A DNA stretch of 64,000 nucleotides from Acidobacteriota bacterium (GTDB taxonomy: Bacteria; Acidobacteriota; Thermoanaerobaculia; Thermoanaerobaculales; Thermoanaerobaculaceae). Position 1 is the first letter of the stretch. Every line of letters begins with the position of its first letter. Below, one piece after another: positions 46,435-52,884 of the stretch. The stretch spans positions 1 to 64,000 of the forward strand of contig JACQZW010000054.1 of assembly GCA_016213675.1 (NCBI GenBank). The letters are read 5' to 3'. Below the pieces are notes generated by a model. That model had not been told where the DNA came from and did not search any database. It was given only the letters and a program-made list of their open reading frames with translations. Position numbers and translations under genes: made by a program.

Positions 46435-46494
46435 CGGGACTCAAAATCCCGTATCCGCAAGGGTGTGAGGGTTCGACTCCCTCCTCCGGCACCA
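46435..46494 (+). repeat. Inner attachment junction (prophage attR / element 2 attL)
   Basis: Core GGGACTCAAAATCCCG then TATCCGCAAGGGTGTGAGGG and the T-arm/acceptor sequence, ending in discriminator A plus CCA (46492-46494). It is a tRNA-Leu 3' half lacking its 5' half. Apart from the CCA it matches 52829-52884 exactly, including the variable arm, and differs from the copy at 6457. Confidence 0.9.
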
Positions 46495-46532
46495 ATGACT
46501 TAGCCCCTACACGGGACTTCGGGCCGCACCCC

Positions 46533-46553
46533 GGTGCAACCGCCGTGCAACCG
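46533..46553 (+). repeat. Left integrase arm sites of element 2
   Basis: GGTGCAACCG (46533-46542) and CGTGCAACCG (46544-46553), 11 bp apart, about 82 bp from the core. Matching pair at 52694-52714 at the other end, same orientation. Confidence 0.7.
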
Positions 46554-46702
46554 CCCCGAGGCGCCCCCGCCACCTATCGGCCCGACCGCGGAGCCCCGGG
46601 CGAATTGCCCTCAGGAGCCCCGATCCCGACCCTGGCCGGGCATATGCGCGAAGCGGGGGCAGATCGCTCACCAGGCGGCCGGCCAGGCCCGCCGCAGGGC
46701 AG

Positions 46703-46732
46703 AAAAGAGCCCCGGCACGCGGGCGCCGGGGC
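46703..46732 (-). terminator. Terminator of the element 2 leftward operon
   Basis: On the minus strand GCCCCGGC, an 8-nt loop, GCCGGGGC, then TCTTTTCT. A canonical intrinsic terminator 48 bp after the last leftward gene. Confidence 0.85.
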
Positions 46733-46779
46733 GAGGGATGCCGCGGGGGTGGGCCGCGGCGATAGGGGATCTCAGCGTC

Positions 46780-46968
46780 TCACGGGGCCTCGCTCGGCGC
46801 GGCCACGAGGGCGGCAAGGCCCGCCGCTACCACCGCGAGCATCGCCCGTAGCAGCCCCTCGCGGGTGGCTGTGCTGGCGTCGCCGGTCCCGATCAGCTCG
46901 CCAACGAGCTTCCGGTTGGCTTCCTCGAGGGCGGCCGTGGCCGTGGCCATGGTCATGGGCTCGCTCAT
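46780..46968 (-). CDS. Small protein with C-terminal membrane helix
   Basis: 62 residues: helical, charged first half (ALEEANRKLVGELIGTG) and a hydrophobic C-terminal helix (LLRAMLAVVAAGLAALVAA). Last gene of the element 2 operon; overlaps the previous stop (ATGA). Function unknown. Confidence 0.6.
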   Translation of the reverse strand: MSEPMTMATATAALEEANRKLVGELIGTGDASTATREGLLRAMLAVVAAGLAALVAAPSEAP

Positions 46969-47501
46969 ATGACCTCCGTGGGGTGGCGCCGGATCAGCCC
47001 GGCAATCTCGGCGCTGATCGCGGCAAGGGTTTCGCGATCGCGGACGTGGTGACGGACGACGGCCACGACCTGCTCGAGCAGCATGAACGCTTCGTCACGG
47101 CTCAGGACCTCGGAGCTGGCCAGGTGCATCTTGGTCAACAACTCGAGAATGCCCCGCGCCTCGCGCATCGTCGCCGCCGCGGTGCGGATCGCCTCGAGCG
47201 CCGTGTCGTGGTCTTGTTGCCGCTGGGCTCGCAGTAGCACCCGCTCGGCCGCGGCGTAGAGCCGCCCGGCGCGGGCGCTTTGCTCGCAGACCTGGGCAAG
47301 CAGCCCGTCGCCCCGCATGACGTCGGCCGCCTCGGTTGCCTTCGCCAGCGTCCCCGGCACGCACCCGGCGCGGTGGCGCTGCAGCGAGCCGGTCGACGTG
47401 CCGAAACGTGCCGCCATGTGACGGAACGTCTCGCCGGCGACGATCGCCGCCTCGATCTCCGCCCGGCGCGGGTGGACGCAGACGCTACACGAGCGCGGCA
47501 C
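46965..47501 (-). CDS. HTH protein with N-terminal Cys motif (terminase-small-like fold possible)
   Basis: 178 residues: CSVCVHPRRAEIEAAIVAGE with a helix-turn-helix continuation (RHMAARFGTSTGSLQRHR), then a long helical body. Proteins with this opening occur in phages and satellites, often near terminase genes. In a satellite it could redirect packaging or regulate, but that is speculation. A good Shine-Dalgarno is not seen; it closely follows the gene at 47504. Confidence 0.6.
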   Translation of the reverse strand: MPRSCSVCVHPRRAEIEAAIVAGETFRHMAARFGTSTGSLQRHRAGCVPGTLAKATEAADVMRGDGLLAQVCEQSARAGRLYAAAERVLLRAQRQQDHDTALEAIRTAAATMREARGILELLTKMHLASSEVLSRDEAFMLLEQVVAVVRHHVRDRETLAAISAEIAGLIRRHPTEVI

Positions 47502-47503
47502 GG

Positions 47504-50769: not shown

Positions 50770-50820
50770 CTTGCCCTCCCGCGGGCAAGGTAGAGCGGAG
50801 GGCCGCAATCTCCCCGGGGA

Positions 50821-51432
50821 TTAGTCGGGCTGTTCGGGGGCGACTAACCGCCGAGGCGCCCTCTTCCGGACTTCCTGGGGGGCCTTGATCCTCCCGGCCG
50901 CGAGAGCGGCCTTGACGAAGTCCTGTTTGAGGCGGCCGGGATCAAGTGACGGCTCGCCTGGGGCGTCGTCGAGGTCGGCGCACGCGAAGGCGTCGTAAAC
51001 GCTCTCGAGGGCGAGAATCGTGATTCGCAGCGCGTGGCGTGTGGGCCGGTGACGGCTCTCCATGTCGGCCGCGATCGAGCTGAGGCGCGCCGCCGTGCTG
51101 CGCAGGGTCGAGAGGCTCTCCCGGACCTGGCGCGCGGTGAGGGCGCGCCTTCTCAGGGCGAAGTCGAGGGACGCGGCCGATCGCCAGTCGAGCCCCGCAA
51201 GAGCGCGCTCGGTCTCTGTGACCCGCGTGGCGAGCCGCGTGAGGGCCTCGCGCACGTCGCACGGCCTCGGCCCGTGATCGAGGCGTTGATCGCGCTCCGA
51301 GAATCCCGAGAGCACCTCTTCGATGGCTGCGACGATCCGCTCGCGCCCGCGGCCCTTGGCGTCGTCGCGACCGAGGATCGAGAGCAGCTCCTCTCGCTGT
51401 CCCTCGCTGAGTCGCCACGGAGGGAGCGTCAC
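50821..51432 (-). CDS. Element 2 protein, unknown, coupled to integrase
   Basis: 203 residues from GTG 51432 overlapping the integrase stop. Helical and charged (LSEGQREELLSILGRDDAKGRGRERIVAAIEEVL ...), with a second helical cluster (VREALTRLATRVTETERAL). No family recognised. Confidence 0.6.
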   Translation of the reverse strand: MTLPPWRLSEGQREELLSILGRDDAKGRGRERIVAAIEEVLSGFSERDQRLDHGPRPCDVREALTRLATRVTETERALAGLDWRSAASLDFALRRRALTARQVRESLSTLRSTAARLSSIAADMESRHRPTRHALRITILALESVYDAFACADLDDAPGEPSLDPGRLKQDFVKAALAAGRIKAPQEVRKRAPRRLVAPEQPD

Positions 51433-52649
51433 GGCTGCCCCGCGGCCGGCCGGAAGGGGATGACCTCGGCGCTGCCGTGTGCCACGGCCACGAGGTACTC
51501 GACGGCGCGCACCACGCCTGCCTTGACCTGTGCCGGCGTCGGCCTGGCGTACACCGCGGTGACGCCACCGACAGGGGTATGCCCGAGCACCGCCGCGATG
51601 TGCGGCAGCGGCACGCCGGCCTCGAGCGCGTAAGTGGCGAACGTCCGCCGGAGGTCGTGCTGCGTCACCTCGGCGAGCTTGGCACTCGTGAGGACTCGCA
51701 CCCACCCCGCCCGCGGACCGTTCGTGTGGCCGGAGGTCGTGCCCGGGGCGGGGAAGATCCACACGGCGCCGGGCGCCGCGTGCTGCTCGCGCTCGCGGAG
51801 GATGGCGACCGCTGCCGGGGCGAGCGGCACCTCGAGCGGGCGGCCCGCCTTCATGCTCTCGGCAGGGATTCGCCAGAGGGCGTCTTTCAGCGAGACGTCG
51901 CGCCAGCGGGCCGCGGCGAGGCTGCCGCGCCTTGCGCCGGTGAAGAGCAGCAGGCGCAGGAAGTCGCGCGCCTCGTCGTCGTGCTCCGCCTCGCAGGCGT
52001 CCAGGAAGCGCCGCAGCTCGTCGGCCGAGAGGTAGCGCGCCTTGGACTGCTCGCGGTTCCGGGGCGTGCCGGCGACGGGGTTGTGAAGATCGGCGCCCCA
52101 CTCGCGCGCTTTCTCAAAGAGGGTGTGGAGCAGCGCCCGGACACGGTTCGCGGCGCCCGGTCCTGAGTGACTCGTGATCGTGTCGAGAAGTCGAATCACC
52201 GCGGGCCGGTCAATCGAGGAGAGCTTTCGCGAGCCCCACGCCGCAAGGTGCTTCGCGTAGCGGGTCTCATCGGTGGACAGGGAGCGCTTGCGCGGGCCGT
52301 GGCGTTTCTTGAACTCCGTCCACAGCGCGGCGAGGGTCATCTCGGCGCGGATCGCCCGGCGCTCCGCGGTGGGCGAGCGTCCCATATCGACTTGGCCCGC
52401 GAGGATGCCCGCTCGTTTCCGGGCGAGCTCCGGCGAGAGGTCGTCGACAGTGCCGAGGCGCAAACGCTCGAGGCGGCCTCTCGACTTCTTCACGAGGTAC
52501 CACGACTTGGCGCCGCTCGGCATGACCAGCACCGCAAGCCGGCGTTGGGCCTGGTCATAGACGTAGTACCGCTCGGCCTCGGGCTGCAGCTCGGCAACCC
52601 TCGGTTTCGTGAACGCGACGCGGGGACGGGGTGCGCGACGGGGGCTCAT
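51429..52649 (-). CDS. int: P4-type tyrosine integrase of element 2
   Basis: 406 residues from ATG 52649 (GGAGG upstream). The N-terminal DUF4102-like region (YVYDQAQRRLAVLVMPSGAKSWYLVK) is typical of P4-type integrases. Catalytic residues are all present: Arg in GARRGSL, HDLRRT, LGH and Tyr in AVYARP. It is unrelated in detail to the prophage integrase but uses the same tRNA core. Confidence 0.92.
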   Translation of the reverse strand: MSPRRAPRPRVAFTKPRVAELQPEAERYYVYDQAQRRLAVLVMPSGAKSWYLVKKSRGRLERLRLGTVDDLSPELARKRAGILAGQVDMGRSPTAERRAIRAEMTLAALWTEFKKRHGPRKRSLSTDETRYAKHLAAWGSRKLSSIDRPAVIRLLDTITSHSGPGAANRVRALLHTLFEKAREWGADLHNPVAGTPRNREQSKARYLSADELRRFLDACEAEHDDEARDFLRLLLFTGARRGSLAAARWRDVSLKDALWRIPAESMKAGRPLEVPLAPAAVAILREREQHAAPGAVWIFPAPGTTSGHTNGPRAGWVRVLTSAKLAEVTQHDLRRTFATYALEAGVPLPHIAAVLGHTPVGGVTAVYARPTPAQVKAGVVRAVEYLVAVAHGSAEVIPFRPAAGQP

Positions 52650-52693
52650 CGGACCACCTCCAAGGCGGGCACGGGACACCGGCCGCGAGCGCC

Positions 52694-52714
52694 GGTGCAA
52701 CCGTGGTGCAACCG
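52694..52714 (+). repeat. Right integrase arm sites of element 2
   Basis: GGTGCAACCG at 52694-52703 and 52705-52714, 11 bp apart, same orientation as the left pair at 46533-46553, about 115 bp from the core at 52829. Confidence 0.7.
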
Positions 52715-52750
52715 CCCGTAGCAATCGGCGTGTACGAGCATCAATCAGAG

Positions 52751-52779
52751 TCTATTTCTAAGCTCTTGTCACGTCAAGA
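52751..52779 (-). promoter_or_regulatory. Integrase promoter of element 2
   Basis: On the minus strand TTGACG, 17-bp spacer, TAGACT, about 95 nt upstream of the integrase ATG. The local sequence is unusually AT-rich for this genome. It lies between the core and the arm sites, so integrase binding may feed back on it. Confidence 0.65.
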
Positions 52780-52828
52780 GTAGCGCTGAGGGTCGAAAAC
52801 GAGCAAGCACGGGCTATCTCGTGTTTGA

Positions 52829-52884
52829 GGGACTCAAAATCCCGTATCCGCAAGGGTGTGAGGGTTCGACTCCCTCCTCCGGCA
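52829..52884 (+). repeat. attR of element 2 (original tRNA-Leu 3' half)
   Basis: GGGACTCAAAATCCCG followed by the variable arm TATCCGCAAGGGTG and the T-arm/acceptor ending CTCCGGC plus discriminator A, then AGA rather than CCA. This is probably the ancestral host 3' half, displaced by two integrations. Confidence 0.85.

Follow-up and report, generated by a model that had tools for sequence, protein, structure and literature searches.

A candidate PICI-like phage satellite with its own small-terminase-like gene in tRNA-Leu(CAA) of an Acidobacteriota genome

The window analysed here, a 64,000-nucleotide stretch of an Acidobacteriota genome (contig JACQZW010000054.1), contains at positions 46436-52884 a complete, discrete integrated element of ~6.4 kb, inserted in a tRNA-Leu(CAA) gene. 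We propose, with a probability of roughly three in four, that the element is a phage satellite resembling the phage-inducible chromosomal islands (PICIs), and that it would redirect the packaging motor of a helper phage by means of its own small terminase (TerS). The reading as a satellite, already put forward in an earlier note on this DNA and supported by the present results, draws on the anatomy of the element and, more strongly, on two further observations: that relatives of its TerS-like protein lie beside the large terminase (TerL) in phages, and that integrase elements having TerS without TerL occur in related genomes, at about ten further loci of the class. Its gene for the small packaging subunit, with none for the packaging motor, capsid or tail, makes it most likely that the element moves inside particles made by another phage.

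A small-terminase-like protein and its relatives

The TerS-like protein (178 aa; 46965..47501, minus strand) comprises a CxxCxH motif and a helix-turn-helix (HTH), followed by a long helical hairpin. In an AlphaFold2 (AF2) model (pLDDT 85) the HTH is likewise followed by the hairpin, which as modelled resembles TerS oligomerisation domains; the size of the protein and its HTH would also fit TerS. Relatives occur in phages, both cultured and assembled, whose hosts differ widely; three of them, Thermus phage Riverbug, Meiothermus phage MMP17 and vir515 of Methanosarcinales, have the annotated TerL directly downstream of the relative. In a scan of viral contigs that returned 35 loci with relatives, TerL, as called by a profile built from annotated phage TerLs plus the window TerL and iterated over the same contigs, lies directly downstream in 21 and one gene away in 7 more (28 of 35). 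The family has no match among 72,556 plasmids. Viral-contig scans with the single TerS or ORF232 protein, which address close relatives, or with the integrase family returned nothing useful. We conclude that gene neighbourhood and layout support assignment of the protein to the TerS family, in line with the terminase-small-like layout first noticed for it.

Among 148 genomes of the class, 19 have the TerS-like family. TerL lies beside TerS in about eight of the loci; in about eleven others, which have an integrase, the stretch fetched, spanning roughly 8 kb on each side or ending with the contig, contains no TerL. Loci L028, L148, L149 and L152 combine an integrase or other recombinase, HTH genes, a primase or prim-pol, and TerS near the far end. 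The 73 proteins of nine such loci with TerS and integrase, the window's included, match 18 Pfam families, comprising integrases, AlpA/HTH proteins, primases, helicases and recombinases; no large terminase, portal, capsid, tail or relaxase is among these 18, and structural families are absent from the best 25 of the 70 PHROG families for such loci.

Anatomy and proposed mobilisation of the element

The element is bounded by a perfect direct repeat of 56 bp that corresponds to the 3' half of tRNA-Leu(CAA), starting at the anticodon stem. The left copy (attL, 46436..46491, plus strand) is followed by CCA and element-specific DNA, and the right copy (attR, 52829..52884, plus strand) is not followed by CCA. 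In a whole-genome search the only further copy is an 83% partial match at tRNA-Leu itself (6431-6517), the sole intact tRNA in the window. The locus reads, in order, tRNA-Leu 5' half with a prophage-borne 3' half, prophage, element, chromosome; one tRNA gene thus holds two stacked mobile elements, and satellite-first and prophage-first integration predict identical junctions. Just inside the element ends, and nowhere else in the 64 kb, are four copies of GTGCAACCG, arranged as one pair at 46534..46553 (plus strand; starts 46534 and 46545, 11 bp apart) and a second pair at 52695..52714 (plus strand; starts 52695 and 52706). We read these pairs as probable arm-type integrase sites because the integrase has an arm-binding domain and because the same layout, with GTTCAACC, occurs in an element of Acidobacteria bacterium FW104_bin.1 (genome G004; SCRJ01000198.1, L025/L101) whose integrase is 64-66% identical to that of the window, a strong case of co-variation. 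The att repeat, the arm sites at both ends and the iterons described below are jointly far beyond chance. An ATPase gene and the adjoining tRNA-Leu(CAA) are conserved among relatives; the locus is occupied by the 12.35-kb element in G004, whereas in G005, G014 and G015 the tRNA is intact and no second repeat is present. A degenerate copy of the tRNA-Leu(CAA) 5' half is present at window positions 6324-6362, ~107 bp upstream of the intact tRNA, and such a copy also lies upstream of the tRNA in G004, G014 and G015.

The element has ten open reading frames (ORFs), all on the minus strand: integrase, ORF203, AlpA-type HTH protein, initiator, ORF71, ORF232, ORF227, zinc ribbon, TerS-like protein and ORF62. 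The tyrosine integrase with its Arm-DNA-bind_3 domain (51429..52649; PF00589, 3.7e-21) and the AlpA/Xis-type regulator (50557..50769; Pfam HTH_17, 7.8e-10; phrog_66, 7.7e-9) bear out the integrase and AlpA/Xis-like regulator named in the earlier note, and Pfam Phage_AlpA gives no match to the latter protein. The single leftward gene set with a terminator at its end is likewise borne out: an intrinsic-terminator-like stem-loop (46709..46732, minus strand; stem 46732-46709, then TCTTTTCT) directly follows the last gene, ORF62 (46780..46968), at a site of a type that is not above chance by count. Neither Pfam nor PHROGs recognises any TerL, portal, capsid, tail, lysis or relaxase gene in the element, which agrees with the claim that it has no structural genes.

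The claim of an initiator with in-gene iterons holds firmly for the iterons and weakly for the initiator. The candidate initiator (323 aa; 49569..50540, minus strand) is weakly lambda-O-like (phrog_270, 6e-4; phrog_391, 1e-3), with no Pfam match and no primase match. Inside its gene are 3.3 copies of CCGGGTTTCGGACCGAAAGGGG (49947..50018), a probable origin that consists of three perfect 22-bp tandem copies and a partial one (Tandem Repeats Finder, 100% match). As 22 cannot be divided evenly by 3, the copies are read in all three frames and the protein has no repeats, which indicates that selection acts on the DNA. The lambda O gene likewise contains its iterons.

These features bear on two other origins for the element. 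An ordinary temperate phage stripped of its structural half but still holding int, alpA, rep and terS, and now immobile or moved only by chance packaging, would retain the phage-like order int ... rep ... terS that we observe, and the tape-measure gene of a relative at the same tRNA makes gene loss from phages conceivable. We consider this degraded prophage very unlikely, given that the ORFs are all intact and tightly packed, several neighbours having 4-bp overlaps, that att and arm sites are both intact, that no structural-gene relic is found (Pfam, PHROGs), that TerS-only integrase elements recur in the class, and that the integrase is under purifying selection (dN 0.34, dS about 0.95). An integrative mobilisable element or other non-phage island, moving by conjugation or natural uptake, is more improbable still: an integrase, an AlpA-type Xis and an iteron replicon also occur in integrative mobilisable elements, but no relaxase or mobilisation family was found among the element proteins in any profile library scanned. 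The earlier note had held that homologues mainly in plasmid or conjugative elements would speak against a satellite; the plasmid search gave 0 matches for the initiator, as for the TerS-like protein.

According to the proposal that the element is a satellite, a helper phage would switch on AlpA, and Int, with AlpA as Xis, would cut the element out at its tRNA repeats. The initiator would then bind the in-gene iterons and start replication, the element TerS would bind a pac site on the element and dock to the helper large terminase, and the helper would pack element DNA into its heads. These could be full-size heads holding concatemers or smaller ones, shrunk by one of the orphan proteins, for instance ORF232. 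On arrival in a recipient, Int would return the circle to tRNA-Leu and restore the gene end. The element would contribute its own specificity of packaging and take all other functions from elsewhere. Published work treats the presence of terminase genes in an element as a mark of mobilisation by phages (PMC11389934); the SaPI TerS, which redirects packaging, provides a worked example, and AlpA serves as activator in Gram-negative PICIs (PMC6092414).

Opposing evidence and the helper question

Several results weigh against this proposal. PHROGs and Pfam give nothing significant for the TerS-like protein and place it in no named family; comparison of its model by Foldseek (PDB, BFVD) and VIA-align gave generic helical matches with no TerS entry prominent, a lack that excludes nothing; and the Riverbug annotation gives the name TerS to another gene, gp31. 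The initiator, ORF227 and ORF232 have no relatives among 145 genomes of the class. Neither a pac or cos site nor a helper phage was identified for the element, the prophage in the same tRNA gene and the element have no DNA in common beyond chance and the att core (best E 0.002), and the TerL of that prophage has 22% identity over 326 aa to one TerL that accompanies the TerS-like family.

The first of these results, together with the indirect nature of gene order as evidence for TerS, would fit a protein that is a phage-derived regulator encoded upstream of terL and not a small terminase, in which case the element would still be a satellite, using the cos or pac site of its helper. The recurrence of the TerL neighbourhood in phages of very different hosts, and the fit of size, HTH and helical hairpin to TerS, make the regulator quite unlikely.

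The prophage (6431..46435, plus strand) lies in tandem with the element, outside it, and is a candidate helper. It sits in the anticodon region of tRNA-Leu(CAA), carries a divergent tRNA 3' half, and encodes an integrase, a CI-like repressor, TerS-TerL, portal, capsid, tape measure and tail fibre. That it is the specific helper of the element appears doubtful to us: it occupies the same tRNA gene and is the sole clear source of TerL in the genome (three further matches are marginal, near 5e-5 to 1e-4), but its TerS differs, its TerL is distant, it has no DNA in common with the element beyond chance, and unrelated elements commonly share tRNA sites. The large-terminase comparison would count mildly against dependence on this neighbour, and a helper phage absent from this genome is at least as likely. 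The prophage was also considered, and rejected, as the source of the element TerS: when its own TerS (22088-22468) was searched as a single sequence with the TerS profile, the score was only 10.6 bits, and the two kinds of TerL are far apart.

Relation to known satellites and to elements of the class

Comparison with known kinds of satellite places the element closest in working plan to the PICIs (SaPIs and the Gram-negative types). Four PICI features are present: an integrase with att sites, here in a tRNA gene as in PICIs; an AlpA-type regulator near int; a TerS-like gene without TerL; and the absence of structural and lysis genes. Like PICIs, the element has a candidate replication gene of its own. 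It differs in that this initiator, which has iterons inside its gene and no primase match, is weakly lambda-O-like, in that the TerS is of an unnamed zinc-HTH kind, in that no known PICI interference gene is recognised, and in its host phylum, Acidobacteriota. Judged by its genes, the element works like a PICI; we do not file it as one because its initiator and cargo are orphans. The suggestion that it might be a new type stands only in part: the working plan int-alpA-rep-terS is that of PICIs, and the initiator, ORF232 and ORF227 are the components for which the 145 genomes of the class offer no relatives. The element is neither P4-like, nor a capsid-forming PICI (cfPICI), nor a phage-inducible chromosomal minimalist island (PICMI). 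With the PICMIs of Vibrionaceae it shares very small size, int, AlpA and a candidate replication gene, and the lack of a recognised capsid-remodelling gene; it lies in tRNA-Leu(CAA) and not next to fis, has a TerS-like gene and has no primase match. With P4-like satellites it shares an arm-domain integrase, an AlpA/Vis-type HTH protein and a small zinc protein, but there is no match to Ogr_Delta, Psu, Sid or the alpha primase-helicase (E up to 1, Pfam and PHROGs). Like cfPICIs it would be a satellite carrying a packaging gene; cfPICIs have capsid, portal and both terminase subunits, whereas the element has only TerS.

The remaining genes, all on the minus strand, are less readily placed. The zinc-ribbon protein (69 aa; 47504..47713), with two CxxC pairs 21 residues apart and a weak Q-like match (phrog_6060, 3e-5), is possibly a late-gene regulator; the Ogr/Delta-like layout claimed for it reduces to the general two-CxxC arrangement. 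ORF203 (50821..51432), between int and alpA, has a possible remote counterpart (26%) in L025, and ORF71 (49357..49572) has a weak HTH. ORF232 (48493..49191) is an orphan with a helical C-terminal half, and its AF2 model (pLDDT 52, single protein) was left out of the fold search. ORF227 (47795..48478) is a cysteine-rich orphan; a match to the defence protein DrmC (0.009) was taken as noise and ORF227 rejected as defence cargo. In the defence-system search the AlpA-type protein matched mad1 (4.5e-5), probably by virtue of its HTH alone. Searches of Pfam, PHROGs, NCBIfam and PADLOC matched no genes for interference or capsid remodelling exclusive to PICIs; the orphan proteins could supply such a function.

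The G004 element, which shares with the window element the tRNA-Leu(CAA) locus, AlpA and the arm-site layout and has a TerS-like protein 45-47% identical to the window's, differs in having a DnaB-like/AAA_25 helicase in place of the O-like initiator and in having a tape-measure-like gene. The latter encodes a 706-aa protein (L025:10080-12200; G004:C65) that matches tail tape-measure families (phrog_1535, 1.8e-29). No capsid, portal or TerL was recognised in the L025 element, a satellite-like element bringing its own tape measure. Other loci of the class show further arrangements. Next to TerS in L027, L056, L068, L085, L102, L104 and L113 the large terminase often falls into two separate ORFs, one for the ATPase (in L056, for example, phrog_7579 at 1.2e-54) and one that is nuclease-like (phrog_27743, listed as of unknown function), and some of these loci (e.g. 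L104) are in integrase-bearing elements with no capsid gene seen. Integrase-bearing elements at L107 (10480-13876), L111 and L143-L147 combine TerS and a TerL ATPase region with a tandem array of three or four paralogues of the TerL-nuclease-like ORF. Very large proteins are encoded in elements with the same integrase family at L054:9049-15393 (2114 aa; weak virion-protein match, phrog_684, 6.6e-5) and L050:9868-12909 (1013 aa).

We suggest tentatively, at somewhat less than even odds, that the element belongs to a satellite lineage of Acidobacteriota not described before, whose hallmarks would be an integrase, an AlpA-type HTH protein and, near the distal end, a zinc-HTH small terminase, with replication modules swapped among an O-like iteron initiator, a DnaB-like helicase and primases, and with some members adding a tape measure or an ATPase/nuclease-split large terminase, thereby extending helper control from packaging to tail building. 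A search of one literature library for satellites in Acidobacteria found no report for the phylum. The TerS family seems to be unnamed in Pfam and PHROGs, and naming it would allow a packaging gene to be annotated in many phages. A zinc-HTH TerS without TerL would offer a sequence handle for satellites where known markers fail, and the satellite proposal, if true, would add a widespread, hard-to-culture phylum to the hosts of phage satellites.

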